Of a stretch of 64,000 nt of DNA, positions 824 through 62,976 are shown one piece after another (within the stretch, counting starts at the first letter, position 1; every line of letters starts with the position of its first letter). The notes under the pieces were generated by a model. The model was not told the DNA's origin and ran no database searches. It worked only from the letters and a program-made list of their open reading frames with translations. The stretch comes from Spiractinospora alimapuensis (GTDB lineage: Bacteria > Actinomycetota > Actinomycetes > Streptosporangiales > Streptosporangiaceae): NCBI RefSeq assembly GCF_018437505.1, contig NZ_CP072467.1:3806010-3870009 (forward strand), in the 5' to 3' direction. The position numbers were made by a program, and so were the translations under genes.

Positions 824-1735
824 ATGAAGCCATCGAGGACCAGACTGGTGCGCCGCCGGGACTTCCTCTATCGCGCCGGCGGCGTCGGCCTGGTCGCGGT
901 CACCGGACCGGTGCTGCTGTCGGCGTGCTCCCGATCCGAGAACGGTGAGGAGGGGCCCCTCACCCTGGAGCGCCTCCAGGAGCAGGGCTACATCCGGGCC
1001 GGGATCGCCAACGAGCAGCCCTACGGGTTCGTCGACGACGCGGGGGAGCTGACCGGTGAGTCCCCCGAACTCGCCAAGGCCATCTTCGCCGAGCTCGGTA
1101 TCGACGAGGTCCGAGCCGACCCGGTGGCGTGGGACGGGCTGATCCCGGGACTCACCTCCGACCGCTTCGACTTCGTGGCGGCGGGCATGTCGATCATCCC
1201 GGACCGGTGCTCGGAGGTCGCCTTCTCCAACCCGGAGTACCAGGGACAGACCGCGTTCATGGTCCCCGTCGGCAACCCGGAGGGTATCGAGACCTTCGAG
1301 GACGTCGCCGGGAACTCCGACATCACGCTGTGCGTCCTGAACGCGGCGGTGGAGCAGACCTTCGCCGAGGAACTCGGTGTCCCCAGTGGTCAGTTGGAGG
1401 CCGTGGACGACCAGGTGACGGCGTTCGAGTTCCTGGAGTCCGGCCGGGTGGACGCGATCGCGCTGACCAACATCTCGTTGAACTGGATGCTGCAGGAGCG
1501 CGAGGCCGAGGACGAGTTCGAGGTCACCGATGGATACACGCCGGTGATCGACGGTGAGGAGCAGATCGGCGCCGGAGGGTTCGCCTTCCGACAGGAGGAC
1601 ACCGAGATCGTGGAGGCCGTCAACGGGGTACTGGCGGACTTCCAGGAGAGCGGTCGCCTGCTGGAGATCATCGAGCCGTTCGGGTTCACCGAGGACAACC
1701 TCCCCGGCGACCTGACCGTCGACGACCTGTGCTGA
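824..1735 (+). CDS. ehuB: Ectoine/hydroxyectoine ABC transporter, substrate-binding lipoprotein EhuB
   Basis: A 303-residue extracellular solute-binding protein of the polar amino acid/ectoine class (SBP family 3). The N-terminus carries a twin-arginine signal (RRRDFLYRAGG, from residue 10) ending in a lipobox LLSAC with Cys35, so it is probably exported folded and lipid-anchored. The order binding protein, two permeases, ATPase matches ehuBCDA described in Sinorhizobium and actinomycetes, and ectC immediately upstream supports ectoine as ligand. The start is ATG with GAGGAGA a few bases before it. Expected role: capture of ectoine/hydroxyectoine outside the membrane and delivery to EhuCD. 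The ligand assignment rests on family resemblance and context; a related polar amino acid cannot be excluded from sequence alone. Confidence 0.88.
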   Translation: MKPSRTRLVRRRDFLYRAGGVGLVAVTGPVLLSACSRSENGEEGPLTLERLQEQGYIRAGIANEQPYGFVDDAGELTGESPELAKAIFAELGIDEVRADPVAWDGLIPGLTSDRFDFVAAGMSIIPDRCSEVAFSNPEYQGQTAFMVPVGNPEGIETFEDVAGNSDITLCVLNAAVEQTFAEELGVPSGQLEAVDDQVTAFEFLESGRVDAIALTNISLNWMLQEREAEDEFEVTDGYTPVIDGEEQIGAGGFAFRQEDTEIVEAVNGVLADFQESGRLLEIIEPFGFTEDNLPGDLTVDDLC

Positions 1736-1907
1736 CCGCGGTCGGGGCCGCGCCGGCGACGGGGTCGTGACCGCACCACCACGCGGTGTGTCCACGCTGG
1801 TGGACCCGACGGACCCGACCCACCCCGGCGACGCCCCGTCCGTCCCCCAATCCTCCCTGGCAATCCTCTCCGTCCCCCAACGCATCGAGAGAGCGAGGTG
1901 ACGGCCC

Positions 1908-2678
1908 GTGGACGTGGTTCTGTGGGCGCAGACGGCCTGGGACTGGGCCGTCGGCGCCGTCGAGTTCATCGGGACACGATTCCCGAGCTACCTGGAAGGC
2001 GCCAAGTTCACCGTCCTGGCGACACTGGGCGGGGCCGCGCTCGGCTTCGTGCTCGCCATGGTCATCGGCATCGCCGGGACCACGCGCAGTCGCGCGCTGC
2101 GTGCGGTCGCCACGGTGTACACCGAGACCTTCCGCGGTGTGTCGGCGCTGGTGTTGATGTTCTGGGCGGCGTTCGCCATCCCGAACGTCACCTCGTTCAC
2201 CTTCGAGCCGTTGACGGCGGGAATCGTCGCGCTCGGCGTGAACATCGGAGCCTACGGCGCGGAGGTCGTCCGGGCCGCGATCAACGCCGTGCCCCGGTCC
2301 CAGGTCGAGGCCACCATCGCGCTGAACATGACGTGGACGCGCCGCATGTGGTCGGTCATCCTGCCGCAGGCCTGGGCGCAGATGCTCCCCACGTTCGGCA
2401 ACCTGGTCATCGAGTTGATGAAGGCGACGGCGGTGATCTCGCTGATCGGCGTCACCGACATCATGTGGTCGGCCGACCTGGCCCGGAGCAGCACCTTCGA
2501 GACGGTCTACGCCTACGGCTGGGCCCTGGTCATGTACTTCGTCTTCGCCCAGATCCTGGTCTTCCTGATGCGCCTGCTGGAACGGCACGCCAACCGACGG
2601 CTGGGCCGCGCCTCGGGAACGGGGTTCTGGTCGCTGCTGCGACCGCCCTCCATCACGACGGCGGGAGGTGCGCGCTGA
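1908..2678 (+). CDS. ehuC: Ectoine/hydroxyectoine ABC transporter permease EhuC
   Basis: A 256-residue His/Glu/Gln-type amino acid ABC permease. Hydrophobic segments surround the cytoplasmic EAA loop, here read from VEATIALNMTWTRRM onward, which docks the ATPase EhuA. It starts at ATG 1908, 170 bases after ehuB, with GAGCGAGGTGA upstream. Its TGA overlaps the ATG of the next permease by one base, so the two are translationally coupled and should be made in equal amounts as a heterodimer. Family members are usually 210-290 residues, so it looks complete. The C-terminus is slightly extended and basic. Confidence 0.87.
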   Translation: MDVVLWAQTAWDWAVGAVEFIGTRFPSYLEGAKFTVLATLGGAALGFVLAMVIGIAGTTRSRALRAVATVYTETFRGVSALVLMFWAAFAIPNVTSFTFEPLTAGIVALGVNIGAYGAEVVRAAINAVPRSQVEATIALNMTWTRRMWSVILPQAWAQMLPTFGNLVIELMKATAVISLIGVTDIMWSADLARSSTFETVYAYGWALVMYFVFAQILVFLMRLLERHANRRLGRASGTGFWSLLRPPSITTAGGAR

Positions 2679-3316
2679 TGGTGTGGGACTGGGAGTTCAC
2701 CGGACAGGTCCTGCCCGACCTGGCCTCCGGCCTGTGGGTCACCGTGCAGGCGACCGTCTTCGGTTACGCCATCGCACTCGTCCTCGGCCTGGCGGTCGCG
2801 CTCCTGCGCCGTCTGCCGGTGATCGGGACCCTGGTGTTCGCCGTCTTCGAGTTCATCCGCTCCACCCCGCTGCTGGTGCAGCTCGTCTTCGTCTTCTTCC
2901 TCGTTCCCGGTGCGGTGGCACCGCTCACCGTTGGGATCCTCGTCCTGGGCGTGCACTACTCCGCCTACACCGCGGAGGTCTACCGTTCGGGAATCGAGGG
3001 AGTGCAGAAGGGGCAGTGGGAAGCCTGCCGCGCGCTGAGCCTGCCAGCGCACCGCGTCTGGGGAGCGGTCATCCTGCCCCAGGCGATCCGCAAGGTCATC
3101 CCGCCGCTGGGCAACTACCTGATCGCGATGTTCAAGGACACCCCGCTGTTGTTCGCGATCGCGGTCCCGGAGCTGTTGTCCCAGGCGCAGCGGGTAGGCG
3201 GACAGTACTTCCGGGTGTTCGAGGCGATGACGATGGTGGGTCTGCTCTTTATCCTGGTGAGCGTCCCATCGGCGATACTCATTCGACGATTGGAGCGACG
3301 CTATGCAGCCGTCTGA
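2678..3316 (+). CDS. ehuD: Ectoine/hydroxyectoine ABC transporter permease EhuD
   Basis: A 212-residue partner permease of the same His/Glu/Gln TRAP family. The start is the ATG at 2678, which shares one base with the ehuC stop (TGATG) and is preceded by GGGAGGTG. A longer in-frame reading upstream is the out-of-frame shadow of ehuC. The EAA-type loop, read around KGQWEACRALSLPAHR, is present, followed by the typical PPLGNYLIAMFKDTPLL stretch. Its 3' end overlaps ehuA by 14 bases. With EhuC it should form the membrane channel for ectoines. Confidence 0.87.
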   Translation: MVWDWEFTGQVLPDLASGLWVTVQATVFGYAIALVLGLAVALLRRLPVIGTLVFAVFEFIRSTPLLVQLVFVFFLVPGAVAPLTVGILVLGVHYSAYTAEVYRSGIEGVQKGQWEACRALSLPAHRVWGAVILPQAIRKVIPPLGNYLIAMFKDTPLLFAIAVPELLSQAQRVGGQYFRVFEAMTMVGLLFILVSVPSAILIRRLERRYAAV

Positions 3317-4118
3317 CGCGGCGTCCGAGGCCGCCGCCGGGGGCGCCGAGCCCCTGATCCGGTTCGAGTCGGTCGTCAAGCGATTCGGCGAGCTCACCGT
3401 GCTCGACCACCTCGACTTCTCCGTCGACGCCGGGGAGCGCGTCACCCTGATCGGCCCCAGTGGGTCGGGGAAGACCACCATCCTCCGGCTGCTGATGACG
3501 TTGGAGCGGGTCACCGACGGCGTCATCTGGCTCGCGGGGGAGCCGTTCAGCCACATGCGGCGCGGCGAGGCCCTCGTCGCGGCCAGCGAGCCGCACCTGC
3601 GTGCCCACCGCAAGCGGATCGGCATGGTGTTCCAACAGTTCAACCTGTTCCCGAACATGACCGTGCGCAAGAACATCACCGAGGCGCCGGTGCACGTCCT
3701 GGGAGCGAACAAGGACGCCGCCAACGAGCAGGCGGTGGAGCTGTTGGAACTGGTGGGGCTGGCGGACAAGGTCGACGCGCACCCGACCCAACTGTCGGGC
3801 GGTCAACAACAACGCGTCGCGATCGCCCGCGCGCTGGCGATGCGGCCCGAGATCCTCCTCCTGGACGAGGTCACCTCGGCCCTGGACCCGGAACTCGTGG
3901 GCGGGGTCCTGGACGTGCTGCGCGACATCGCCCAGTCGACGAACGTCACCATGCTCATCGTGACGCACGAGATGGGCTTCGCCCGGGACGTGTCGAACCG
4001 GGTGCTGATGTTCGACAAGGGGCGCATCGTCGAGGAGGGGCCACCGGACCAGATCTTCGGCGACCCGCACGAGGAACGGACCAGGGGTTTCCTGCGGGCG
4101 GTCCTCGAGTCGGAGTGA
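3303..4118 (+). CDS. ehuA: Ectoine/hydroxyectoine ABC transporter ATP-binding protein EhuA
   Basis: A 271-residue ABC ATPase with all catalytic motifs: Walker A GPSGSGKT at residues 51-58, signature LSGGQQQR near 163, Walker B with EILLLDEVTSALD near 183, and the switch His in VTHEMGF. It belongs to the polar amino acid importer ATPases. The ATG lies inside the end of ehuD (14-base overlap), the last gene of the ehuBCDA operon. A bulged 14-bp hairpin follows at 4139-4177. Function: ATP hydrolysis to drive ectoine uptake through EhuCD. Confidence 0.88.
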   Translation: MQPSDAASEAAAGGAEPLIRFESVVKRFGELTVLDHLDFSVDAGERVTLIGPSGSGKTTILRLLMTLERVTDGVIWLAGEPFSHMRRGEALVAASEPHLRAHRKRIGMVFQQFNLFPNMTVRKNITEAPVHVLGANKDAANEQAVELLELVGLADKVDAHPTQLSGGQQQRVAIARALAMRPEILLLDEVTSALDPELVGGVLDVLRDIAQSTNVTMLIVTHEMGFARDVSNRVLMFDKGRIVEEGPPDQIFGDPHEERTRGFLRAVLESE

Positions 4119-4138
4119 GTGGCCGTTCTCCTCGGTGA

Positions 4139-4177
4139 GGGGGTTCCCTTCCGGCGCTGGCCGCGGAAGGAACCCCC
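4139..4177 (+). terminator. Terminator after ehuA
   Basis: Left arm 4139-4153 pairs with right arm 4164-4177 to give a 14-bp stem with one bulged C. The loop is about ten bases. It begins 20 bases after the ehuA stop and has no T-run. It probably ends the ehuBCDA transcript. Confidence 0.65.
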
Positions 4178-4333
4178 GCCCTGCCACACTCGCCTCACGG
4201 ACGCCCCCTCGGGCGCGCTTCGGTCCGGAACAGACTCGCCGCGGGGGCCGGCCCGTGGTCCGTCCTCGCGGTGGGCACCCCTGACCCTCTCCGTGGTGTC
4301 CGGCGGTTGCCGCCCCTGATCTACCGTGGGTGC

Positions 4334-5353
4334 ATGAACGAGCGCACTGTCGAATGGACCGGCACCGGTCTACGTCTGCTTGACCAGACCAAGCTCCCCG
4401 GGAAGATCGAGTACCTGTCGATCGAGACCGTGGACCAGCTCGTCGACGCGATCGCGCGGCTCGTCGTGCGCGGCGCCCCGGCCATCGGGGCGGCCGGGGC
4501 GTACGGGGTCGCGTTGGCGCTCCTCGAAGCCGAACGGGAGGGATGGTCGGAGGAACGGCGCGAGGAGGCGATCGATCGGATCCGCGACGCCCGTCCGACC
4601 GCCGTGAACCTCGCCTGGGCCGTGGACCGGGTTCGCCCCGCGGTCGCCCAGGGGGTCACCGCGGTGTCGGCGCTCGCGGAGGAGATCGCCCGTGCCGACG
4701 CCGCGGCGAACCGCCGGATCGGACACAACGGCGCCGACTGGCTGGCCGAGCGGCTGGGGACGGACCGACCCCTGCGCGTTCTCACCCACTGCAACACCGG
4801 CGCTCTGGCCACCACCGAGTGGGGGACCGCGTTGGGCATCGTCCGCGAACTGAACCAGCGGGGACGGCTGGAGTCGGTCCACGTCGACGAGACGCGTCCC
4901 CTGCTGCAGGGATCCCGCCTGACCGCGTGGGAGCTCGACCGGGAGGGCATCCAGCACTGGATCCAGCCGGACGGCGCCGCCGCGAGCACCATCATGTCCG
5001 GTCGGGTGGACGCCGCGATCGTGGGCGCGGACCGGATCGCCGGGAACGGCGACACCGCCAACAAGATCGGCACCCTCGGGGTGGGCCTCGCCTGCGCCGA
5101 GGCCGGGATTCCCTTCGTCGTCGCGGCGCCGACGAGCACCGTCGACCTGGCCACGACGTCGGGGGAGCGGATCGAGATCGAGCTACGCGGCGAGGATGAG
5201 GTCCTGGAGTTGGCCGGGATCCGGGTCGCCCCCGTGGGGTCTCCGGGATTCAACCCCGCCTTCGACGTGACACCCGCCCGCTTCGTCACCGCGCTGGTGA
5301 CCGAGGAGCGGGTGTACGAGGTGGCGAAGGGCGACACTCCGGCCGGGAACTGA
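4334..5353 (+). CDS. mtnA: S-methyl-5-thioribose-1-phosphate isomerase
   Basis: A 339-residue protein of the eIF2B-like aldose-ketose isomerase family that converts methylthioribose-1-phosphate to methylthioribulose-1-phosphate in methionine salvage. Diagnostic features are VVRGAPAIGAAGAYG near the N-terminus, CNTGALATTEWGTALG with the active-site Cys near 153, and GADRIAGNGDTANKIGT with the catalytic Asp near 233. I chose ATG 4334, where the family's conserved N-terminal sequence begins; an upstream in-frame ATG at 4271 would add 21 unlikely residues. No other methionine-salvage gene is adjacent. It stands alone between the ehu operon and a convergent gene. Confidence 0.93.
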   Translation: MNERTVEWTGTGLRLLDQTKLPGKIEYLSIETVDQLVDAIARLVVRGAPAIGAAGAYGVALALLEAEREGWSEERREEAIDRIRDARPTAVNLAWAVDRVRPAVAQGVTAVSALAEEIARADAAANRRIGHNGADWLAERLGTDRPLRVLTHCNTGALATTEWGTALGIVRELNQRGRLESVHVDETRPLLQGSRLTAWELDREGIQHWIQPDGAAASTIMSGRVDAAIVGADRIAGNGDTANKIGTLGVGLACAEAGIPFVVAAPTSTVDLATTSGERIEIELRGEDEVLELAGIRVAPVGSPGFNPAFDVTPARFVTALVTEERVYEVAKGDTPAGN

Positions 5354-5424
5354 GAACGGCGGACGTCGGAGCCGCGTGACGGGACGCCGCGGGGTCGGGG
5401 CCGCGGCCCCTCAGAACGCGGTGA

Positions 5425-6153
5425 CTACCACCAGCAGATCCACCGAGGACAACCGTCGTCCTCGTCCTCGTCGCCCTCTTCGTCCTCGCGTTCGCCGGGC
5501 TGCGGTGGACGTTCCCCGACACGCTCGTTGGACTCACCCGGTGCCTCGGTCTCCGGGGAGTCGACGTCGTCCTCGGGGGTCGGTGAGGTGGAGCCGCCGC
5601 CCCCGTCTCCGCCGCTACCGCTCTGGCCGTCCCCGGAGGACGCGCTGTTCGTCGAACTCTGGCCGCCGCTGTTGGACGTGTCCCCGTCGTCCACGTTTCC
5701 CGCGGCGTCGTCCTCGTCGGAGGTCGTGTCCCCGTCGGCGTCGTCCGCCTCCGGGGTCGACTCGTCCTCGTCAGCGGAGGGAGAGGACAACGGCGGTCCG
5801 GCCGCACCTCCGGAGAAGGGGTTCTCGTCGTCCTCCGCGGGGGAGTCGGCGGCGACCTCCTCCCCGTCCGGGCCGGGCTGAAGCCACACGACGCCACCGA
5901 CGATCAGGCCGAGGGCGAGGGCCCCGGCCACGAGAACGGGGGCCAGCGGGATCCGGCGCCGCTTGGTTGGCTGGGCGTGGCGACCGCGAACGGGCCCGTT
6001 GGGCTCGTTCGGCTCGTCGTCGACGTCGGGGTAGGTGAAACTGCCGAGGGTTTGGTCGGAGGGGCTCCGTGACGCACTGGCGGCCCCGAAGGACTCTGTC
6101 GCGGAGGATCGATCATCGAATCCCGCGACGTCCGGGTCGTCGCTGCGTGACAT
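5425..6153 (-). CDS. Membrane-anchored protein with acidic disordered tail and aromatic/Cys C-terminus
   Basis: I do not recognise this family. The 242-residue product has a cytoplasmic-looking N-terminus (about 60 residues), a basic stop KRRRIP, one transmembrane segment (about 69-91), then some 140 residues rich in Asp, Glu, Ser, Gly and Thr that must be disordered. It ends with DDGCPRWICWW, a compact Cys-x4-Cys aromatic tip. ATG 6153 is preceded by TTGGAG seven bases away; earlier in-frame starts lack a ribosome site. With an N-in orientation the acidic tail would extend outside the cell. It is convergent with mtnA. It could be a cell-envelope spacer or an anchor for a binding peptide; no enzymatic domain is visible. 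Confidence 0.6.
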   Translation of the reverse strand: MSRSDDPDVAGFDDRSSATESFGAASASRSPSDQTLGSFTYPDVDDEPNEPNGPVRGRHAQPTKRRRIPLAPVLVAGALALGLIVGGVVWLQPGPDGEEVAADSPAEDDENPFSGGAAGPPLSSPSADEDESTPEADDADGDTTSDEDDAAGNVDDGDTSNSGGQSSTNSASSGDGQSGSGGDGGGGSTSPTPEDDVDSPETEAPGESNERVGERPPQPGEREDEEGDEDEDDGCPRWICWW

Positions 6154-6635
6154 GGGAAACTCCAATGAAGGCGGTGACTTCCAGGTCTGGGGGATCGAAA
6201 CGGTATGGATACCGCAAAGGTGATCAATGGTGTCGGATGGGTGTGACAGTGACAAGCGACCTCACGCTGTGTGACTGAATCTCGTGCATTCTGCCGCACT
6301 TTTTGTCAGCGGGAATCCCCCTGTGCGCGGGCGGTCCGTCAACCAGGAAGAACACACCGAGAAACGCAGGCGGGGTGTCGGTCCAATGGCGGGAATTCCA
6401 CCTGGTGTGGGAATGGGTGACCGACGAAAAGGGTGGTGAGGACCGCTCAGCCGACAGCGGCGCTCAGCGGTGCGAGTCCACGGCCGTCGCGGTTGGAGTG
6501 GAGCGTATTTCCTGGTCTCGGGCGTCCTCCTCACTGCTGCCCCGGCGTGGGCGGCGCGCCCTCGCGGGGTGAGGTGAGGAGGGGGATGAACAGCGAGAAC
6601 ACGACACGTGTATCTTTCGTGCCCGTCCGTGTTCC

Positions 6636-6659
6636 CCTGGCCGGTTGCGGCCAGGGGGG
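6636..6659. terminator. Nine-base-pair hairpin
   Basis: CCCCTGGCC (6636-6644) and GGCCAGGGG (6651-6659) flank the loop GGTTGC. There is no T-run on either strand. It may be a terminator or an RNA structure; nothing decides between them. Confidence 0.35.
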
Positions 6660-6756
6660 AAATCGGGGGTGCTGCGGAGAGTGAGGGCGGTGTGGCGCCG
6701 GAGTCGACCGCGCGGCGTGTTCTTCCCGTGTCCCGGTGTTGGGGGCCGGGCACGGC

Positions 6757-6791
6757 CGTGCGGCGGCGCCCAAGGGGCACCGCCGCACGGT
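6757..6791 (-). terminator. Probable terminator of the exporter operon
   Basis: An 11-bp stem (6757-6767 with 6781-6791) continues, after one mismatch, into an inner GCCC/GGGC stem. It lies downstream of the minus-strand permease gene that ends at 6940. The structure would be stable when read from either strand. Confidence 0.5.
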
Positions 6792-6939
6792 TCTCGCCAC
6801 AGTGGGCTCCGCCGGGCCGGCCCGCACCGCGAAGCGTCGCCCCTGGGCCACTGCCCGCGCGTGAGCCCCAGGACCAGCGGTGACCGAGCGGTCGAGACGC
6901 GGACCTCGACCGTCGGCCGTGGGGCCCACGCGCGGGGGC

Positions 6940-8856: not shown

Positions 8857-9245
8857 AAAAAGTGATGACATCGGAATATCGCACACAGGTACGACAAAAC
8901 CCGCGAATGCCGCATGGACGTAACAGTGCCGTGGGTCGATCGCTTCCCGGTCCCCGGTGAATTCTTGGGAACGGATCGACATCCGCGGTGGGACAGCGCT
9001 GGCGAGCGATTCGCCATGTCACGTGAACAGCCGGTCGTGGCGTCACCGTGACGCGCGGCCACCCACATCGTCCCGACCCGCCCGCTGAGCGGACTGTCGG
9101 GGGTCGACGCGAGGGGGCGACCAGGACGTGGCGTGGGGGAGCACGATGGATCACCTGGATGCCACGCCGTGGCCGTGCGGTGGTGCCTCTCGGGGGGGAG
9201 AGAAAGGGGCTGAAACGGGGCGGGGCGCGGTGGCCCGACGGAGAA
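8857..9245. other. Intergenic region upstream of the exporter operon
   Basis: Beyond the operator, about 390 bases hold no gene I can support. The left part is AT-rich for this genome and probably contains the exporter promoter. Confidence 0.45.
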
Positions 9246-9476
9246 CTAGATAGCGGTCGGCTCGGGGATGCGCTCGGTGCGCCAGACCCAGTTCCCGCTG
9301 GGCTCCGTCATTCGACGCTGGACCTTGTCGACGTCGTCCAGCCGGATGCTGAACTCCGACTGCCAGAAGCCGGCGGCGCGCTTCTCCAGGTGCAGGATGT
9401 CGGTGTCGACGCGCATCCGTACTGCCTGAACCGTTTCGACGGAGCCGTCGTTCTTGCGCAGGCGGAAGGTAGGCAT
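9246..9476 (-). CDS. Small hypothetical protein
   Basis: A 76-residue soluble protein with a balanced composition that is not the Arg/Pro-rich make-up of shadow frames. It starts MPTFRLRKNDGSVETVQAV and has alternating hydrophobic residues suggestive of a small beta-rich fold. ATG 9476 is preceded by GGGGAG at five bases. It stands alone on the minus strand between the exporter promoter and the oxidoreductase gene. I recognise no family; it is probably real because of the ribosome site and codon usage. Confidence 0.55.
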   Translation of the reverse strand: MPTFRLRKNDGSVETVQAVRMRVDTDILHLEKRAAGFWQSEFSIRLDDVDKVQRRMTEPSGNWVWRTERIPEPTAI

Positions 9477-9637
9477 GGGAGCTCCCCAGATCGCTTGATT
9501 CGTGTCGGCTGGCGCGCGGGCGCGAGCGCAGAGGCATCCTGAGCCGATGAGGGGAAGGTGCAGGTTGGCCGCGCAGGGACCGTCGCGAGCGGCGCCGGAC
9601 AGAATTCTATCCGCCTTACGAATTGCCTCGGGGCGCC

Positions 9638-9655
9638 GGGGGAGGTTTCTCCCCC
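9638..9655 (-). terminator. Short hairpin downstream of the oxidoreductase
   Basis: GGGGGAG (9638-9644) and CTCCCCC (9649-9655) flank a GTTT loop. It lies 70 bases beyond the stop of the minus-strand oxidoreductase. Confidence 0.45.
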
Positions 9656-9723
9656 AAGTCGATCACATGTCCCATAACTGCGGAGATGACGCGGTCACTG
9701 TGGGGCGTCACGATCGCCGCACC

Positions 9724-11092
9724 TTATGCGGAGTCGGTGCCCAACCGTTCCAACGCGTCGCCGATCGCGCGGTGGAACGTGGGGAAGGCGAACGGCAGGT
9801 GCCGTAGCGTCGCCACCGGTGTCCGCGCGTGCACCGCGACGGCGAGCGCGGAGAGGACCTCGCCACCCCACGGGCCCACCGACGTCGCGCCCACCAGCAC
9901 GTCGCGTTCGGTGTCGGCGACCAGTTTGATCACTCCGGCGTTGCCGACCTCGTGGATCCACCCCCGCGAGCTTTCGGGAACCTGGGTGGTACTGGTGCGA
10001 ACCGCCAAACCCTGTTCCCGTGCCTGGGCCTCGGTCAGTCCGACCGAGCCCACCTCAGGATCGGTGAAAGTCACGTGCGGGATCGCGTGGTACTCGGCCT
10101 CGGGGCCGTCGATCCCGAGGATGTCCCGCGCGGCGATGTCCGCCTGGTACATCGAGACGTGGGTGAACTGGCCGCGCCCTGTGATGTCACCCACGGCGTA
10201 GATCCCGTCCGCGACCCGCATACGACCGTCGGGATCCAGGAAACGCGCCCCAGGGTCCAGACCGACGGTGTCCAACCCCAGACCGCCGAGATTGGTGCGC
10301 CGACCGGTAGAGACGAGGAGTCGGTCGGCCCGCACCGTCTCGTCGGGGAGATGGAGGGTGAACTCCTGCCCGTCCCAGGTGACCTCGGTGACGCGGGCGC
10401 CTGTGCGCACGTCGATGCCGTCCTCCGCGCAGGCACGGGTGACGATCGCCTGGGCCTCCGGCTCCTCGACTCCGAGGAGTGAGGGGCCCGCCTCGACGAT
10501 GGTGACCCGGGTTCCGAACCGGGCGAAGGCCTGTCCCAGCTCCACGCCGATCGCCCCACCGCCCAGCACGGCCAGCGAGAGGGGGGCGCGTTCCGCGGTG
10601 AGCGCCTCTCGGTTGGTCCAGAACGGTGTGTCCCGCAGCCCCTCGACGGGCGGGACCGCGGGCGCGGTTCCCGTGTTGAGGACGATCGCGCGGCGGGCCG
10701 CGAAGTCGGTGTCGCCCACACGTACGGTGCCGGGCCCCGTGAGACGGCCGTGTCCCCGGACGAACCTGCCCCCCGGTGCTCTCGAACCGTTCGACCGCCG
10801 CGGTGTCGTCCCACCCGTCGGTGGCCTCGTCGCGGATGCGTTTCGCCACGGGTCCCAGGTTCGGTGAGACGTCACTCGCCCCGGCGAGGACGTTCACCCG
10901 CCGGCCCTCCGCCAGAGAGTTGGCCGCCCGGATCATCATCTTGCTGGGAATGCACCCGTAGTAGGGGCACTCCCCGCCCAGGAGGCGTGCCTCCACGCCG
11001 ACTACGCTGAGTCCCTCCGTGGCCAGCCGGCCCGCCAAGGCCTCTCCGCCTGGCCCCATGCCGATGACGACCACGTCCACGGTCTCCGTCAT
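9724..11092 (-). pseudogene. Pyridine nucleotide-disulfide oxidoreductase (dihydrolipoamide dehydrogenase/mercuric reductase-like), frameshifted
   Basis: Two overlapping frames together make one class I flavoprotein of about 455 residues. The N-terminal frame (from ATG 11092, with GGGGGG upstream) has the FAD-binding start VVVIGMGPGGEALAGRLA and the redox-active GGECPYYGCIPSK (Cys-x4-Cys). The C-terminal frame has the NAD(P)-binding GGGAIGVELGQAFARFG, the FAD-contacting YAVGDITG and the dimerisation domain. The switch falls at a run of six C (10769-10774); removing one base joins STGG to RFVRGHGRL, the expected continuation. The reaction would be NAD(P)H-dependent reduction of a disulfide or related acceptor. 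Whether the frameshift is real or a base-calling error cannot be decided here; all catalytic motifs are otherwise intact, favouring an error. Confidence 0.8.
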
Positions 11093-11220
11093 GATGTGAC
11101 CCCCCATCGGCACTGTGCTACCCGCTGACGTGACCGTGCTATCCCCCGGGGGGACATGAGTGTGCCGGGCGTCCCCACCGGTGCGTACGGAGGTCCGTGG
11201 GTGTGGTGTCGGAGCGGCGG

Positions 11221-11518
11221 TTACTCACCGGCCGCGAGCGCGGAGTTCACGGCCGCGGCGAGGTGCAGGTCGCTCGCGGGTGATGCCCCCTGCGTCGTGC
11301 GTGGTGCTGGTGACCGTCACCCGGTTGTAGTCGTGGACGGCGATGTCGGGGTGGTGGTTGCGCTGGTTGGCGACGTAGGCCACGACGTTGGCGAGCTGCA
11401 TGGCGCCGCTGAAGCCCTTCACCTGCCAGGAGCGCACGAGGGTGTCGCCGTCGCGACTCCAGCCGTGCAGGGCGGCGAGTTCGTTGTCGACGGTCTGTGG
11501 GTCGAGGAGTTGGGCCAC
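11221..11518 (-). CDS. 4a-hydroxytetrahydrobiopterin (pterin-4a-carbinolamine) dehydratase, frameshifted near the C-terminus
   Basis: A PCD/DCoH family protein that dehydrates 4a-hydroxytetrahydrobiopterin. GTG 11518 follows TGGAGGA by five bases and gives the usual length of about 98 residues. The motif NHHPDIAVHDYNRV and THDAGGIT are clear. In the sequence as given, the frame then runs into RERPAPRRGRELRARGR and stops at 11225. Removing one base near 11278-11280 gives ASDLHLAAAVNSALAAGE and a TAA at 11221, which restores the conserved Asp expected 8-15 residues after the motif His. I therefore annotate the corrected end. Longer N-terminal readings, to 11746, are shadow. Confidence 0.75.
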
Positions 11519-11744
11519 GGAGTCCTCCAGGTGGTGAATGGGCGGCGCGAACGTCGGCAGTGTCGCAGATCCACCGCTCCGGGGCACGCATCTGGCGTTC
11601 CGACGACGCCGCGGCCGGTTGGGGAGCCGTGGCGGGGCTACAGTCATGGGTTGGGAGCGGGGCTCGACCCCGGCCTTCCGTTCGGCGGGAGTGCGACGGA
11701 GTTCGTCGTCGGACATCGCTGGAGTCGACAGGAGATCCGCTGTC

Positions 11745-12146
11745 ATGGCCGTGCTCTATCCACTGATCCCCCTGCTCGCCGGGGGCGGGATCCTCTGGTG
11801 GGCCCTGCGGGAGTCCGGCGTGCGTACGCGGGGAAGCACCCGGGCGCTGCGGGCCGACGCCGAGGTCGTGGGCTACGCGGAGACCGGCAGGTCCTCACGG
11901 ATGATCATCGAGTTCCGCACGGGTGACGGTGTGGACGTGCGGACCACGCACAGCAGTACGGGCTGGTCCGCGGCTCGTCGCGGCGAGCGTGTGGTGGTGG
12001 CCTATGACCGGGAGGATCCCGAACGCGCCCACATCGTCGAGGGCCCCTGGCTCAGCCAGTGGACGCCCCGTCTCCTCGTCGGAACCGCGGTGGCGCTGAT
12101 CCTCGTGGGCGCGGTGCTCGCCTACCTCGCCTGGAGCCCGGCGTGA
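11745..12146 (+). CDS. DUF3592 domain membrane protein
   Basis: A 133-residue protein with one membrane segment at each end (about 4-20 and 108-128) flanking an extracytoplasmic beta domain with the DUF3592 pattern (EVVGYAETGRSSRMIIEFRTGDG ... VVVAYDREDPERAHI, around 11865-12040). Function of the family is unknown. ATG 11745 has GGAG nine bases upstream; a longer frame from 11538 is antisense to the pterin dehydratase. It is divergent from that gene and convergent with the DHA2 transporter. Confidence 0.75.
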   Translation: MAVLYPLIPLLAGGGILWWALRESGVRTRGSTRALRADAEVVGYAETGRSSRMIIEFRTGDGVDVRTTHSSTGWSAARRGERVVVAYDREDPERAHIVEGPWLSQWTPRLLVGTAVALILVGAVLAYLAWSPA

Positions 12147-12426
12147 GCCTGACGGCGGTCCGCCCCAGCCCGGAGGGCGGGTCATAGGCGGCGAGCCGCG
12201 GACCATCACTGACCGAGGCCGAACGAGTCACCCGGAGCGCGACCGCGGTGTCCTCCCTTCTTGCCCCGGGGCGGGGTGACTGGCCCTCACGGTGGAGACC
12301 GAGACCCGTCACTCCGTCCAGGAGACGGTTCGCACCGGGCGCGGCGCCGTGGGCGCGTCCTATCCACACCCTGTGGGCGCCCATCGCTCACCTGGGCCCA
12401 ACGGACTACGCGCCCGTGGACATCCG

Positions 12427-57398: not shown

Positions 57399-57932
57399 AT
57401 GATCACGTTTCGTTCCCTCACCGAGGCGGACTTCTCCCTGCTCCGGGAGTGGCTCGCCCAGCCCCGGGTCGCGCGGTGGTGGAATCACGAGTACACGCCG
57501 GAGGCGGTGGCGCGGGACTTCGGGCCCTCGGTGCGTGGCGAGGAAGCGGGGGAGAACCTGGTCGCCGTCGAGGACGGTCGGTCGATCGGGCTCGTGCAAC
57601 GACACCGGTTGGCGGACTATCCACAGTATGTGGACGAGTTCGCGAGCGTGCTGACCGTCCCGGACGGTGCGGTGTCCATCGACTATCTGCTCGGCCCGCC
57701 TGAGCTCCTGGGGATGGGGCTCGGGCCCCGGATGATCCACGCCGTCGTGCTGCGCACCTGGGCCGACATGCCGGACGCGACGTGTGTGCTCGTCCCGGTG
57801 GCGGCGGGAAACCGTGCCTCCTGGCGCGCGTTGGAGAAGGCCGGGTTCCACTATGTCGGCAGCGGCCCGATGGAGCCGGACAACCCAGCCGACGACCCGC
57901 TACACCACGTGTATCGGGTCGACCGTCCCTGA
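57399..57932 (+). CDS. GNAT acetyltransferase (AAC(6')-like)
   Basis: A 177-residue acetyltransferase of the aminoglycoside 6'-N-acetyltransferase/IucB-like branch. It opens ITFRSLTEADFSLLREWLAQ and has SIDYLLGPPELLGMGLGPRM (acetyl-CoA loop) and VLVPVAAGNRASWRALEKAG, then FHYVG. An ATG with GGAG upstream starts it, 15 bases after the MFS gene. The 3' end overlaps the convergent LysR gene by 33 bases. It might modify an aminoglycoside or a small amine; resistance is not proven by sequence. Confidence 0.85.
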   Translation: MITFRSLTEADFSLLREWLAQPRVARWWNHEYTPEAVARDFGPSVRGEEAGENLVAVEDGRSIGLVQRHRLADYPQYVDEFASVLTVPDGAVSIDYLLGPPELLGMGLGPRMIHAVVLRTWADMPDATCVLVPVAAGNRASWRALEKAGFHYVGSGPMEPDNPADDPLHHVYRVDRP

Positions 57933-58913
57933 GCCGCTCGTGGTCCCCGGGCCGAAGCGCTCCGCCGGTGGCGGCGTCCAGCTCGTCGCCGCCGCGTCGG
58001 TGTCGGGGGTGAGCCCGAAGTCGGCGGCGGCGTCCAACGTCGCCCGGACGAACGCGCACTCGGAGGGGCGGTCCCCGGTGGCCTGCCGGCGCACCACGAG
58101 CACCCGACGGGTCATCGGATCGCGCAGGGGGACGATGTCCACCGCCGCCGGCCGCAGCGACAGCCCCAGGTCCGCGACCAGGGTGACGCCCAGGCCGGCG
58201 GCCACCATCGCCATGGCGGTGGCCTGCTCGTCCACCTGGTGCGCGATGTGGGGGACGAAGCCGGCGCGTTGGCACACCATGCGCAGCGCGTGTCCGAACT
58301 GGGTGTTGGCCTCGGAGGCCACCCAGGAGAAGTCCGCGAACTCCGCGAGGTCAACCGGCTCGGCGCTGTCCAGGGCGCCGGGCGGGGTCACCAGGCGCAG
58401 TTGTTCCACACAGATCGGGGTGGAGACGACGCTCGCGTCCCACGCGGTCGGGGCGTCCGGGTAGTCCAGGACGAACGCGAGGTCCAGCTCTCCCTCCCGG
58501 ACCGCGGTCTGCATCTGCTCCGGCGGCACCTCCCGCGTCTTCACCCGGATCCCCGGGTGACGCTCGGCGAGCCGGGCGAGGGCGGGTGGCACCAGGGAGC
58601 TGGCCAGGGTCGCGAGAACGCCGACGGTGAGCTCGGCCTGCAGCGTCTTCTGTGCCTGCTCGACCGCGATCCGCGCGCGCCGTTCGGCGGCCAGGACCTC
58701 ACCGGCGTGCGTGGCGAGCACCCGGCCGACCTCGGTGAGGCGCAGCCGTCGTCCCACCTGTTCCAGGAGTTCCAGACCGACCTCGCGCTCCAGAACCGCC
58801 AACTGCTGGGACACCGCGGACGGTGTGTAGTGCAGGATCGTCGCCGTCTCGGTGACCGTGCCGCACCGGGAGAACTCGTACAGCATCCGCAGGCGGTGTA
58901 AGGAGAGTTCCAT
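57900..58913 (-). CDS. LysR-family transcriptional regulator
   Basis: A 337-residue LysR regulator. The N-terminal helix-turn-helix (LYEFSRCGTVTETATILHYT, then PSAVSQQLAVLER) is canonical and a substrate-binding domain follows. It is divergent from the M24-MHS-DadA operon, with about 150 bases between, so it is probably the operon's activator, sensing its substrate. TCAAGGAG occurs twice there (58913-58920, 58936-58943). ATG 58913 has no classical ribosome site. The last 35 residues (Pro/Gly-rich) are not part of the fold and overlap the GNAT gene. Confidence 0.87.
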   Translation of the reverse strand: MELSLHRLRMLYEFSRCGTVTETATILHYTPSAVSQQLAVLEREVGLELLEQVGRRLRLTEVGRVLATHAGEVLAAERRARIAVEQAQKTLQAELTVGVLATLASSLVPPALARLAERHPGIRVKTREVPPEQMQTAVREGELDLAFVLDYPDAPTAWDASVVSTPICVEQLRLVTPPGALDSAEPVDLAEFADFSWVASEANTQFGHALRMVCQRAGFVPHIAHQVDEQATAMAMVAAGLGVTLVADLGLSLRPAAVDIVPLRDPMTRRVLVVRRQATGDRPSECAFVRATLDAAADFGLTPDTDAAATSWTPPPAERFGPGTTSGSGTVDPIHVV

Positions 58914-59064
58914 CAAGGAGAACTAAAGCATTTCCTCAAGGAGTGTTCAATAGACCTGAAGAGAAGTTGATCTCTACACTGCCGATGAATGGTGATCTCC
59001 GCGGGATCTCTTCATACGCCCCTCTGTCCACGGCCTGGTCACTTCGGCGCGAAAAGAGAGCACA
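58914..59064. promoter_or_regulatory. Divergent control region of the LysR gene and the M24 operon
   Basis: This AT-rich gap of 151 bases contains the direct repeat TCAAGGAG (58913-58920 and 58936-58943), 23 bases apart, which is a candidate LysR contact. It ends with the M24 ribosome site. Both promoters must lie here. Confidence 0.45.
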
Positions 59065-60315
59065 ATGGGTCTAGAGTCACGCAACGATTTTCCGACGGAC
59101 GTCGCGCGCCTCGGGGCGTCTGGCGCGCCTAGCTGGCTGACCAGCGAGAATTCCGCAGGTGTGGTGGAAACCGAAGGGCCGTCGTTCGGTAATGACACCT
59201 ACCGCGCCCGTCAGCGGGATATCCGCGAGCGCATGGCGCGGCTCGGTGTGGACGCGATGCTCGTTTTCCGGCCGTCCAGCGTCGAGTATCTGTGCGGATA
59301 CCACACGATGGAGACCGCGCCCCAGCCGCTGCTGGTCACCGAGTCCACCAGCTACCTCTATGTCCCCGACCTCGAGGTCGGCCGTGCCCTGGCGACGTCC
59401 CGCGTCGACAACATCCGGTACTGCGGCTACGCCGACGGGTTGAGCGGTCTGGACGGCTACCTGAGCCACGCGGTCGGCCTGCTGCCCGCGGGGGCTCGGG
59501 TCGGTGTGGAGTTCGGACACGCCTCCACCCCTCCACAGGCTGTGGAGATCCTCCGCGCCCGCGAGATCACCGTCGTCGACGGCGACTACCTCGTGGAGCG
59601 GGCCCGACTGGTGCTGTCGGAGGAGGAGATCCGCTGCGTGGAGCAGGCGGGCCTCGTCGCCGACGCCGGCACGAAGGCCGCGGTCGCCGAGGCGGGCCGC
59701 GACGGCGCCACGGACTCCTCCGTCTGCGCCGCCATCGCCGAGGCCCTCTACCGCGACGCGGATTCGTCGTCGGTGTGGGGACCGGTCGCCGCGACCGGAC
59801 CGCGCGGAGGCATCCCGCACGCCACCTGGGTGAACCGGCCCGTCGCCGACGGGACGACCTTCGTGGAGTACGCCGGCACCCACAAGCGCTACCACGCACC
59901 CCTGATGCGCACCCTGCTGCGCGGCCCGCTGGACCCGGCGGACGCCGCCCTGGCCCAGTTGTCGCGGGACACGGTGCAGGCGGTGCTGGAGACCGCGAAG
60001 CCGGGCGTCCTCGCCTCGGAGGTCGCGGCGCGCGCCACCGAGGCGATCAGCCCTCTGCCCGACGACGTCATGTTCCACTTCATGTTCGGCTACCCGGTCG
60101 GGCTCGCCCACAAGCCGCACTGGATGGACGGGGTCCCCTTCTACCTGTCCAAGGACAACCACGAGCCCCTCCAGGCGGGTATGGCGTTCCACATCCCCGG
60201 TTCCTTCCGGTCCTTCGGCCGCGCCGGTGTTGGCCTCAGCCAGACCTTCGTGATCGAGGACGGCGGGGCGCGTGTGGTCACCCACGGGGCGGCGGATCTC
60301 ATCGAGGTCGGGTGA
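59065..60315 (+). CDS. M24-family hydrolase (creatinase/ectoine hydrolase DoeA-like)
   Basis: A 416-residue pita-bread protein. The N-terminal domain (about 50-190) includes VDAMLVFRPSSVEYLCGYHT; the catalytic domain has FVEYAGTHKRYHAPLMRT and LQAGMAFHIPGSFRSFGRAG. In metal aminopeptidases the first of these stretches carries Asp ligands; here they are absent, as in creatinase and in DoeA, which hydrolyse C-N bonds of creatine and ectoine without metal. Expected reaction: hydrolysis of an amide or amidine in a small N-substituted solute. ATG 59065 was chosen as the earliest start after the promoter region; the first 40 residues are atypical. First gene of the operon, coupled (GTGA) to a transporter. 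Confidence 0.78.
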   Translation: MGLESRNDFPTDVARLGASGAPSWLTSENSAGVVETEGPSFGNDTYRARQRDIRERMARLGVDAMLVFRPSSVEYLCGYHTMETAPQPLLVTESTSYLYVPDLEVGRALATSRVDNIRYCGYADGLSGLDGYLSHAVGLLPAGARVGVEFGHASTPPQAVEILRAREITVVDGDYLVERARLVLSEEEIRCVEQAGLVADAGTKAAVAEAGRDGATDSSVCAAIAEALYRDADSSSVWGPVAATGPRGGIPHATWVNRPVADGTTFVEYAGTHKRYHAPLMRTLLRGPLDPADAALAQLSRDTVQAVLETAKPGVLASEVAARATEAISPLPDDVMFHFMFGYPVGLAHKPHWMDGVPFYLSKDNHEPLQAGMAFHIPGSFRSFGRAGVGLSQTFVIEDGGARVVTHGAADLIEVG

Positions 60316-61628
60316 CACGTACCCCGGAGGCGTCCCCGGACGACCTCTCCCCCCAGCACATCACGCCCGCCATGCGGCGCCGAGCGGTCACGGCCGCGAT
60401 GATCGGCAACGCGACGGAGTGGTATGACTACGCCATCTACGGCTACATGGCGGTCGTGCTGGGGGCTGTCTTCTTTCCTCAGGCCGATCCCGTCACGTCG
60501 TTGCTCTACTCCTTCGCCACCTTCGCCGTCGCGTTCGTCATTCGCCCGGTCGGCGCACTGGTGTTGGGGCCGCTCAACGACAAGATCGGCCGGAAGCGCA
60601 CCCTGACCATCACGATCTTCGTGATGGCGGGTGCGACCTTCGCCATCGGTCTCCTGCCGGGCTACGACACCATCGGGGTGTTGGCGCCGATCGCGCTGGT
60701 GACGGCCCGCCTCGTCCAAGGGTTCGCGGTGGGTGGAGAGTACAGCGGGGCCTCGACGTTCGCCGTCGAGTACGCGCCCGACGAGCGGAGGGGATTCTGG
60801 GCGAGCTGGCTCGAGTTCGGCGCGATCGCCGGGTTCCTGCTGGCGTCGGGAATCACGACGCTGCTCACCTACACGCTGAGCGAGGCCGACCTCCATACCT
60901 GGGGATGGCGGATCCCCTTCCTGGTCGCGTTGCCCCTCGGCACGGTCGGCCTGTACCTGCGGTTCCGGCTGATGGACACCCCGAACTTCCGTGCCATCGA
61001 CGAGAACGAGGCCAAGGCGAGCGCCCCCGTGCGGGAAACCCTGAGCGCCCAGTGGCGCCGGGTGCTGATCTGCGGCGGGATCATGATCTACTCCAGCATC
61101 GGCACCTACACGCTCCTCACCTACATGCCGAGCTACTTCTCCGAGGAGCTGCGCCTCCCGGCGGGAACCGCCCACCTGCTCGTGTTCGTCGCCGGCGGCG
61201 TGCTCACCTTTGGCATCCCCTTCGCGGGCCGGTTGTCGGACCGTCTCGGCCGTCGGCCCCTGCTCCTGACGGCGGCCGTCGCCTACATCGTGCTCGCCTA
61301 CCCGGCGTTCCTGCTGATCGGACAGGGCACCTGGCAGTTCGTCCTGGTCGGGATCCTCATCCTCGCCGTGTGCCAGATCCCGATCCTCGGCACCACGACC
61401 GCCACGCTTCCCGCCCTCTTCCCGGCCCGGGTCCGGGGGACGGGCGTCGCGATCGGATACAACATCTCCTTCGCGATCTTCGGCGGCACCGCGCCGTTCG
61501 TCGTCACCTACATCGTCGACGCGACGGGAAACCTGCAGGTTCCGGCGCTCTATCTGATCGGGGCGGCGCTCGTCGCCCTCGTTCCTGTCATCGCGATGCC
61601 GGAGTCCGCGCGTCGCCCGTTGGACTAA
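60312..61628 (+). CDS. MHS-family (MFS) metabolite:proton symporter
   Basis: A 438-residue, twelve-helix MHS transporter (ProP/KgtP-like). ATEWYDYAIYGYMAVVLGAVFF, RPVGALVLGPLNDKIGRKR and RLVQGFAVGGEYSGASTF are defining (around 60410-60760). GTG 60312 overlaps the M24 stop by four bases. MHS members import compatible solutes and organic acids such as betaine, ectoine or citrate, so it probably brings in the substrate of the neighbouring hydrolase. Confidence 0.88.
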   Translation: MTRTPEASPDDLSPQHITPAMRRRAVTAAMIGNATEWYDYAIYGYMAVVLGAVFFPQADPVTSLLYSFATFAVAFVIRPVGALVLGPLNDKIGRKRTLTITIFVMAGATFAIGLLPGYDTIGVLAPIALVTARLVQGFAVGGEYSGASTFAVEYAPDERRGFWASWLEFGAIAGFLLASGITTLLTYTLSEADLHTWGWRIPFLVALPLGTVGLYLRFRLMDTPNFRAIDENEAKASAPVRETLSAQWRRVLICGGIMIYSSIGTYTLLTYMPSYFSEELRLPAGTAHLLVFVAGGVLTFGIPFAGRLSDRLGRRPLLLTAAVAYIVLAYPAFLLIGQGTWQFVLVGILILAVCQIPILGTTTATLPALFPARVRGTGVAIGYNISFAIFGGTAPFVVTYIVDATGNLQVPALYLIGAALVALVPVIAMPESARRPLD

Positions 61629-61647
61629 TCGATTCCCTGGAGGGTTC

Positions 61648-62904
61648 GTGGTGGAAAGCAGTTCCCGTCCGCAGAAGGTAACCGTGGTCGGTGCCGGTAC
61701 CGTTGGCCTGTCCGCCGCGTGGTACCTCCAGGAACACGGGGTCGACGTCACCGTCGTCGACTCCACCGGGGTCGCCGCCGGTGCGTCCTGGGGGAACGCC
61801 GGGCTGCTGACCACAGCGTTCACCGTTCCCATGCCGTCGCCGGGCCAGTTGAAGGCCGGCCCGCAGGCGTTGCTGGATCCGACGTCGGCGGTGACCATCC
61901 CCCTGCGCGCCGACCGTGAGCTGTGGTCCTTCCTCATGGACTTCACCAAGCACAGCATGCCGCGCCGGTGGCGCCGCGCCATGTCGATCTTCCAGGAGGC
62001 GAACCGGAGCAGCCTGGAGACCTACGACGAGCTCGTCGACGGCGGCGTGGACCTGCCCATGCAGCAGGGTGTGCCCCTGCTCGCGGCGTGCGGGGACCGC
62101 TCCGGTCTGCGGCACCTGGTCGACGAGCTGGAGATGGTGCGAGGGGTCGGCTGTGAGGTCAAGTACGACCTCGTCAGCGGTGAGGAGCTCCGTTCCCTGG
62201 AGCCCATGCTGAGCGCGGACGTGCGGATGGGGGCCCTCGTGCACGGGCAGCGCTTCGTGCACCCGCCCAAGCTGGCCCAGACGCTCGCGGACGCGGTGCG
62301 CTCGCGCGGTGGCACGGTCACCGAAGGGTTCACCGTCGCCGATGTCCGCGACCACGTGGACGGGGTCGACGTGGTCGCGGACAACGGTGAGGAGCTGCGT
62401 TCCGACGCGGTCGTCCTCGCGACCGGGACGTGGCTCCCGAAGCTGGCCAAGCGGTTCGGCGTTCGGGTGCCCATGCGCCCCGGGCGCGGCTACAGCTTCA
62501 GCGTGAAGCCGCAGTCCATGCCCACCCACCCCGTCTATCTGCCGGCCGAGCACCTGGCCTGCAACGCGTTGGGGGACCGGTTCCGCGTCACCGGCGCGAT
62601 GGAGTTCCAGCGCGCCGACGCACCGTTCAACCCCCGCCGCATCCACCGCATGATCAACGCCGCCCGACCGATGTTCTCCGGCATCGACTGGAACGCCCGG
62701 TTCGACGAGTGGGTTGGGTCGCGCCCGCTCACCTCCGACGGGCTGCCGCTGGTCGGGCAGACCACGTCCTCGCGGGTCCACGTCTCCGGAGGGCACGGGA
62801 TGTGGGGCATCGTGTTCGGCCCGCTCACCGGAAAGATGCTCGCCGAGTCCATGGTCACCGGTCGGCGCTCGTCCCTGATGCGTTTCTTCGATCCGCTGCG
62901 GTAG
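61648..62904 (+). CDS. FAD-dependent D-amino acid dehydrogenase-like oxidoreductase (DadA/DAO family)
   Basis: A 418-residue flavoprotein. The dinucleotide fold VTVVGAGTVGLSAAWYLQEHG, GASWGNAGLLT, and the end VGSRPLTSDGLPLVGQT with GGHGMWGIVFGP are typical of the DadA/glycine-sarcosine oxidase superfamily. It oxidises an amine to the imine, passing electrons to oxygen or a quinone. GTG 61648 follows TGGAGGG, 20 bases after the transporter. With the hydrolase upstream it could oxidise the amino acid (for example a D- or N-methyl amino acid) released by it. A terminator follows. Confidence 0.87.
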   Translation: MVESSSRPQKVTVVGAGTVGLSAAWYLQEHGVDVTVVDSTGVAAGASWGNAGLLTTAFTVPMPSPGQLKAGPQALLDPTSAVTIPLRADRELWSFLMDFTKHSMPRRWRRAMSIFQEANRSSLETYDELVDGGVDLPMQQGVPLLAACGDRSGLRHLVDELEMVRGVGCEVKYDLVSGEELRSLEPMLSADVRMGALVHGQRFVHPPKLAQTLADAVRSRGGTVTEGFTVADVRDHVDGVDVVADNGEELRSDAVVLATGTWLPKLAKRFGVRVPMRPGRGYSFSVKPQSMPTHPVYLPAEHLACNALGDRFRVTGAMEFQRADAPFNPRRIHRMINAARPMFSGIDWNARFDEWVGSRPLTSDGLPLVGQTTSSRVHVSGGHGMWGIVFGPLTGKMLAESMVTGRRSSLMRFFDPLR

Positions 62905-62918
62905 CGGAGAGGAACGAG

Positions 62919-62949
62919 GAGCCCCGGCGCCGTCCGCCGGGGCTCTTTC
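62919..62949 (+). terminator. Intrinsic terminator after the M24-MHS-DadA operon
   Basis: An 11-bp perfect stem (62919-62929 with 62935-62945) around a five-base loop is followed by TTT. It starts 15 bases after the oxidoreductase stop. Confidence 0.8.
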
Positions 62950-62976
62950 GCGTCCACCCCGCACACCCGCCGCCGA

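Follow-up and report, generated by a model that had tools for sequence, protein, structure and literature searches.

What does a bacterium live on when it carries an operon for an importer, a flavoenzyme and an M24-fold hydrolase whose metal ligands are gone? The question is raised by a locus in a 64,000-nt stretch of the Spiractinospora alimapuensis genome (assembly GCF_018437505.1, contig NZ_CP072467.1, positions 3,806,010–3,870,009, forward strand), hereafter the window. Three genes, for an M24-fold hydrolase, an MHS-family importer and a DAO-fold flavoenzyme, lie on one strand, and a gene for a LysR-family regulator diverges from them. We lean towards reading the locus as a LysR-controlled operon that would feed on a compatible solute: the salt protectant ectoine, its 5-hydroxy form or a close analogue. 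As substrates, the comparisons below favour ectoine or hydroxyectoine first and a close analogue second. A sequence-only reading had proposed a LysR-linked unit for import, hydrolysis and oxidation of an amino-acid product, and our analysis supports that proposal as a reading: the unit likely combines import with hydrolysis by an M24 protein without metal ligands and has a flavin oxidase as its second enzyme.

The M24 protein resembles DoeA and lacks metal ligands

A search for related loci returned 19, all of them actinobacterial, with M24 proteins 58–66% identical to that of the window (best segment). In a 64-row alignment of M24 proteins, the five metal-ligand columns of this clade read E268, P279, Y343, P378 and S392 in 19/19 rows, compared with D, D, H, E and E in all 14 rows that we label prolidase-like (a label of our own) and E, P, Y, M/I and T/S in all six DoeA rows. 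The loss of the metal-binding Asp ligands noted in the sequence-only reading is thereby confirmed and extended to all five columns. The clade shares E268, P279 and Y343 with DoeA and not with the prolidase-like rows. All three groups have H252, Y276 and R282, and H277 occurs in 10 of the 14 prolidase-like rows. In a phmmer alignment (hand-counted), E268, invariant in 20 aligned rows, matched Halomonas elongata DoeA at Glu255, a residue that reportedly forms a covalent intermediate. Both E268 and H252, which stand at the positions of DoeA Glu255 and His238, are kept in 19/19 rows that have no metal ligands, although a His at the latter position also occurs in prolidases.

An AlphaFold model of the M24 protein (predicted local distance difference test score, pLDDT, 83.6) had DoeA/EutD as its nearest solved structures (Foldseek E 6.7e-29; Z 38.7 over 374 residues). 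By Z score, H. elongata DoeA/EutD was followed by creatinase (1chm, 36.1), prolidases and DddP (29.1), while Foldseek mixed prolidases with creatinases. In phmmer the protein scored 82.5 bits with DoeA and 41.5 bits with creatinase, so that of the creatinase/DoeA pattern claimed earlier the DoeA part held, and the creatinase part was weaker on both fold and sequence scores. Against the NCBIfam models of DoeA the protein stayed below both cut-offs (82.7 bits versus 613 for TIGR02993; 137.8 bits versus 575 for NF038259).

Trees were less decisive at depth. In a quick tree, the 19 clade rows and the six DoeA rows were each split off by a branch of support 100, four ungrouped DoeA-like rows sat among the DoeA rows, and the clade did not fall inside the DoeA clade. 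Holding the clade together with the DoeA group was not rejected (approximately unbiased test, p 0.25), and in a reduced tree its neighbours were the prolidase-like rows, at a weak support of 79.7 and in a join flagged as a long-branch effect. The quick tree had placed the clade near rhizobial M24 rows; as this placement was lost on reduction of the tree, we claim no sister for the clade. A firm grouping with metal aminopeptidases, the outcome the sequence-only reading had named as fatal to its proposal, is contradicted by the residues, and the deep branching is weakly supported. Taken at the level of residues and modelled fold, the M24 protein looks like a DoeA-type hydrolase that works without metal.

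Importers beside the hydrolase suggest an ectoine-type substrate

Three unrelated importer types adjoin the M24 gene: the MHS type of the window, which six relatives share, TRAP in one locus and BCCT in another. The MHS protein of the window scored 430.1 bits with PRK10642 (ProP), the best of 28 families, and 408 bits with TIGR00883; both values are below the cut-offs, that of PRK10642 being 544. In Janibacter corallicola (L048), a TRAP DctQMP set lies between the M24 and DAO genes, in the position of the MHS gene, and in a metagenome-assembled genome (MAG) of the Pseudonocardiaceae (L033) a BCCT gene lies directly upstream of M24. ProP, BCCT and TRAP carriers import ectoines, according to excerpts of PMC5924519. 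With importers of TRAP, BCCT and ProP-like type next to the hydrolase, the substrate would be ectoine, hydroxyectoine or something closely related.

The TRAP locus allowed a closer look at the ligand. The best PDB matches of its DctP protein were 3gyy (197 bits), which we take to be TeaA, 2vpn (197), 3fxb (184) and 4pfi (179), followed by others from 130 bits downwards. Excerpts of PMC5924519 identify 2vpn as TeaA and 3fxb as UehA. Among plasmid proteins, the best relatives by bit score were DctPs of Salinivibrio, Leisingera and Phaeobacter. Two of those from Salinivibrio are encoded in dctPQM-usp sets beside nhaD; among those of Leisingera and Phaeobacter, one belongs to a full dctPQM-usp-eutABC-doeA-doeB operon and two to dctPQM-usp-eutA stretches. 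In a 15-row tree, the Janibacter DctP joined the Tea/Ueh side with support of 100/100 against eight generic DctPs. It also has the N-terminal Glu-Glu (EE) of the Tea/Ueh rows, which is absent from 8/8 generic DctPs, keeps the Arg and the Asn-Pro, and, like the Ueh rows, has Phe where Tea has its second tryptophan; together with Trp 167 (hand count) of TeaA/UehA, these are presumably ligand-pocket residues. A search with this DctP in 396 genomes at E 1e-60 gave no match and is uninformative.

The gene set recurs in about half of the related loci

The clade is found in Streptomyces, Streptomonospora, Saccharopolyspora, Halosaccharopolyspora, Haloechinothrix, Prauserella, Qaidamihabitans, Tamaricihabitans, Janibacter and two Pseudonocardiaceae MAGs. 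Genome searches added further M24 loci in G071 (71% identity), G007 (58%), G378 (48%) and G328 (65%); matches in G106 and G146, which have the same identity as L037 and L040, were left out of the count, as was a 66-residue fragment with 56% identity in G006. The M24 family looks rare: when the best four candidates per genome were scored, only three of the 396 genomes searched in the phylum, the host's among them, matched its profile at E 1e-60.

Within 4 kb of M24, a DAO gene was found in 12 of the 23 other loci, a LysR ortholog (at least 55% identity) in 11, an MHS ortholog in six, and all three in five. The linkage of M24, LysR, DAO and MHS exceeds chance, and these four were the only families to recur in more than two loci when 24 neighbourhoods, including L055 and L056, which are not clade loci, were compared with a crude caller of open reading frames. 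Annotated neighbours (a PucR-type regulator, an amidase, DUF1028 and others) gave no hint to the substrate, and six neighbours in L105 matched no family in an NCBIfam search at E 1e-10.

A 60-bp element lies next to lysR

Upstream of lysR, a 60-bp block with the pattern CTAAA - ATRGACSTG - ACTGC at near-constant spacing is present in 12/12 LysR-bearing loci, the window included. A loose form of the pattern occurred in nine of ten regions, the exception being L038 with a GTTAA variant, and all further matches in the compared DNA fall in loci of this operon. The host genome has one exact match, at this locus, as would be expected of a local regulator dedicated to one target. The element is a probable LysR operator/promoter. 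A scan for sigma-70 promoters found nothing, and the window's intergenic region has no strict T-N11-A LysR box with perfect 4-base arms.

Hosts encode ectoine synthase and have no clear match to the known deacetylase

Ectoine synthase (EctC) was found in 20/20 clade genomes tested, compared with about a quarter of the sampled actinobacterial class (97/394). In the window, an EctC match ends at position 131, and EhuB, EhuC and EhuD, which form an ABC importer for ectoine and hydroxyectoine, are encoded at 824–3316, each of these three scoring above its NCBIfam cut-off; these genes lie about 55 kb from the operon, at the window's other end. From these matches, the host can make ectoine and probably re-imports it. 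EhuB had no tblastn match at E 1e-15 in the 23 M24 loci.

Known ectoine breakdown proceeds through DoeA, DoeB, DoeD and DoeC (PMC3187862, in part). The operon encodes none of DoeB, DoeD, DoeC, EutB and EutC. DoeB/EutE, whose absence had been noted earlier for the cluster, was not found in the host genome either, and in 20/20 clade genomes tested no match exceeded the cut-off, one weak match reaching 91 bits versus 402.7.

The flavoenzyme and a proposed route

A model of the DAO protein (pLDDT 83.3) had glycine oxidases and CmiS2 as its nearest folds, followed by D-arginine dehydrogenase, L-proline dehydrogenase, and sarcosine and opine oxidoreductases. The protein is not a DadA by family score (162.6 bits with PRK00711; cut-off 383). 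R359 of its GSRP motif, invariant in 11/11 sequences, is presumably the arginine that binds the substrate carboxylate, as in glycine oxidase. Given these folds and the invariant R359, the modelled enzyme likely acts on an amino acid, whose handedness and identity are not readable from the sequence.

Following this logic, the ProP-like MHS symporter would import the solute. In the M24 protein, E268, helped by H252 and H277, would attack the C=N or amide carbon of the ring and, in the manner of DoeA, open it through a covalent acyl-enzyme, leaving an N-acylated diamino acid. Next, the DAO enzyme would oxidize an amine of this opened product, yielding ammonia and a keto or aldehyde acid; in such a shortened route it would take the place of the deacetylase DoeB and the transaminase DoeD of the known one, and LysR would act through the conserved 60-bp element. 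A more tentative version, which we think rather doubtful, is a second, independent ectoine route in which the M24 protein opens the other side of the ring from DoeA. The product would be N-gamma-acetyl-diaminobutyrate, whose alpha-amine is free, and the DAO enzyme would deaminate it directly, without need of DoeB or a DoeD transaminase.

Evidence against the ectoine reading and alternative functions

Several observations weigh against an ectoine-degrading operon. The M24 protein is not DoeA, because its family scores lie below the cut-offs, the clade is 22–30% identical to DoeA (DoeA rows among themselves, 43–75%) and the pocket loops differ (CGYHTAETAPQP versus TGYDGWSFY in DoeA; AHKPHWMDG versus SYPPDWGERT); plain DoeA was rejected on residues, family scores and tree, and by these trees a sister grouping of clade and DoeA is neither shown nor rejected. 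The importer evidence includes one locus each for TRAP and BCCT, and the BCCT locus has neither DAO nor LysR. The Janibacter DctP is the basal row on a long branch, its grouping is partly built in because the 15 rows were chosen from search ranks, and it has Ala where TeaA/UehA have Trp 167, so that the full ligand pocket is not kept. The EctC enrichment may be partly lineage, since many of the 99 matching genomes of the class belong to one genus (g70), and with EhuBCD present the MHS protein is not the host's only possible ectoine importer.

The gene set is also looser than a fixed pathway would suggest. Nine of the 23 other loci have none of LysR, MHS and DAO within 4 kb of M24 (one of them, L105, ends soon after M24, its downstream side lying outside the sequence), and the M24 gene of the closest homologue, G071 at 71% identity, has none of the three alongside. 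The earlier expectation that the three genes stay together in related genomes is therefore borne out in about half of the loci and fails in G071. Other partners occur in L050, where a TctA gene and an M20 hydrolase gene (3060–6856) accompany M24, and in L046, with an NCS1 permease and a hydantoinase (9062–12161); both loci are without DAO, their alternative genes precede or come after M24, and these may possibly be other downstream steps for the same product. Nine clade genomes have no linked DAO: six of them have a DAO relative of 40–49% identity elsewhere, as the host genome itself does, and G268, G271 and G273 have none close, so the DAO enzyme is not always needed.

The same machinery might instead serve a different small amino acid of the amidine, guanidine or amide kind and no ectoine, with the DAO enzyme oxidizing the amino acid set free, a possibility we take seriously while thinking it unlikely. 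Where DoeA has its loops, the clade has polar residues of its own (E83, H352 and D355, which are clade-specific, and K350, in 18/19 rows), and the Ala of the Janibacter DctP would suit another ligand. DoeA-like M24 proteins are also encoded beside enolase-superfamily, M20 or ABC partners in several further operons for catabolism, and the near folds of the DAO enzyme include oxidases whose names refer to secondary amines (IdaA iminodiacetate oxidase, opine dehydrogenase); secondary amine oxidation is likewise the chemistry of CmiS2. Set against this are the grouping of the TRAP protein with TeaA/UehA, the ProP-like and BCCT importers, and EctC in every host tested. That the substrate may be new, as the sequence-only reading supposed, is thus possible, but the importers favour ectoine, hydroxyectoine or a close relative.

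Creatinase shares the pita-bread fold and has a non-metal mechanism, and an enzyme of its type would turn creatine or a guanidino acid into urea and sarcosine or glycine, with the DAO enzyme as a sarcosine or glycine oxidase. The second place of creatinase by Z score, the proximity of the DAO model to glycine oxidases and sarcosine oxidase, and the NCS1 permease and hydantoinase near M24 in L046 would all fit; the M24 protein is nonetheless closer to DoeA in sequence and fold, the DAO protein reached 37.9 bits with soxA_mon (cut-off 479.65), and no creatine-specific enzyme was seen among 38 annotated neighbours (part of the neighbourhoods), which makes this function improbable. Still less probable is peptide use by an ordinary metal Xaa-Pro dipeptidase with an amino-acid oxidase, to which the Pfam Peptidase_M24 match and the weak long-branch join beside the prolidase-like rows would lend themselves: a metal prolidase or aminopeptidase P was rejected because E,P,Y,P,S stands in place of the required D,D,H,E,E in 19/19 rows. 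A DddP-type lyase of dimethylsulfoniopropionate (DMSP) is the least credible of these functions, even though DddP is an M24-fold enzyme of marine bacteria and the names of some hosts suggest a marine origin. That hosts are halophilic or marine is judged from such names, and a literature search gave no confirmation of it. DMSP contains no nitrogen on which a DAO enzyme could act. DddP binds two metals through ligands common to M24 metalloproteinases (PMC4108388, in part); the clade has changed these ligands and NF043017 was not among its matches at E 0.001, on which grounds DddP was rejected.

Layout of the locus

The three same-strand genes and the divergent lysR lie where the sequence-only reading had put them (Table 1), and the 4-base overlap it described between M24 and MHS is exact, the GTGA of the MHS start being common to the M24 stop. 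A gap between MHS and DAO exists as described, at 19 bases, or 22 with the next GTG, rather than 20. The hairpin downstream pairs 62919–62929 with 62935–62945, and the region 62905–62960 folds strongly (-33.7 kcal/mol, z -3.9); calling it a clean terminator was slightly generous, because only three T follow and it is not among the terminators listed by a consensus scan.

Table 1. Genes and sequence elements of the locus, in window coordinates
Feature	Position	Strand	Remarks
LysR-family regulator	57900..58913	-	ATG 58913, TTG 58916 possible; Pfam HTH_1 + LysR_substrate
Conserved 60-bp element, probable LysR operator/promoter	58923..58982	.	CTAAA - ATRGACSTG - ACTGC; 9 bases from lysR start
M24-fold hydrolase, DoeA type without metal ligands, 416 aa	59065..60315	+	Start ATG 59065, stop TGA 60315; Pfam Creatinase_N + Peptidase_M24; putative active-site positions E268, H252, H277
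E268 codon, aligned with Halomonas elongata DoeA Glu255	59866..59868	+	phmmer alignment, position hand-counted
MHS-family importer, ProP-like, 438 aa	60312..61628	+	Start GTG 60312; Pfam MFS; PRK10642 ProP 430 bits, TIGR00883 408 bits
DAO-fold flavin adenine dinucleotide (FAD) amino-acid oxidase/dehydrogenase, glycine-oxidase/DadA-like, 418 aa	61648..62904	+	Start GTG 61648, stop TAG 62904; Pfam DAO 209 bits
11-bp perfect G+C-rich hairpin, probable terminator	62919..62945	+	Fold energy -33.7 kcal/mol, z -3.9 (62905–62960); weak T tract TTTC

Relation to known systems and to other M24 operons

The operon resembles the DoeA/EutD system in the fold of the hydrolase, the loss of metal ligands, the aligned Glu255 and the varied importers (TRAP and others) near the hydrolase. 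It differs in having LysR where the known system has EnuR/AsnC, and a DAO flavoenzyme without DoeB/DoeD/DoeC or EutB/EutC. Putative Gram-positive ectoine clusters found through EutB/EutD are described in the accessible part of PMC13188858 (2026): like the operon here, they pair a DoeA-like protein with an MFS, BCCT, TRAP or ABC importer in Bacillota and Actinomycetota, those of Bacillaceae being without eutE, whereas they have eutBC, atf, abgB, thrA, adh and PucR, none of which is in this operon. In literature titles and the openings of abstracts, with subscription papers mostly outside that sample, no such operon was described, in searches none of which combined the names M24, MHS and DAO.

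According to the same part of PMC13188858, ectoine breakdown has been validated by experiment only in a small number of Proteobacteria. If ectoine is degraded by the operon, it would be a regulated actinobacterial route that is invisible to searches with EutD/EutE or EutB, and it would offer a deletion target in actinobacteria that produce ectoine; if the N-gamma route is true, ectoine-making actinobacteria could consume or recycle their ectoine. Should the hydrolase act on some other solute, it would be a new addition to the catabolic M24 enzymes that lack metal ligands, a group in which several proteins carry the annotation Xaa-Pro peptidase. Either way, the substrate is open to direct test with few proteins and a handful of compounds.

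Operons of rhizobia, such as that on pAt of Agrobacterium fabrum, likewise set an M24 protein without metal ligands in an import and degradation operon, here with mandelate-racemase-like and M20 proteins; they differ in their ABC importer, enolase-superfamily enzyme and GntR regulator, and their M24 proteins are 27–32% identical. On two rhizobial plasmids (L069 and L070), an amino-acid ABC importer, an M20 hydrolase and a mandelate-racemase-like enzyme accompany an M24 protein annotated 'Xaa-Pro peptidase', a name that is probably wrong because the metal ligands are replaced. The host itself has a second DoeA-like M24 protein, 28% identical to the first and about 140 kb away (L055:9007-10227; G000:C1 ~3721006-3722226), in a separate operon with a divergent LysR gene and an adjoining enolase-superfamily enzyme. 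Near it, L055:6783-7919 encodes a protein like the methyltransferase of ATP-grasp peptide maturase systems (TIGR04188, 270 bits versus a cut-off of 380), which is possibly part of a cluster for a ribosomally synthesized and post-translationally modified peptide (RiPP).

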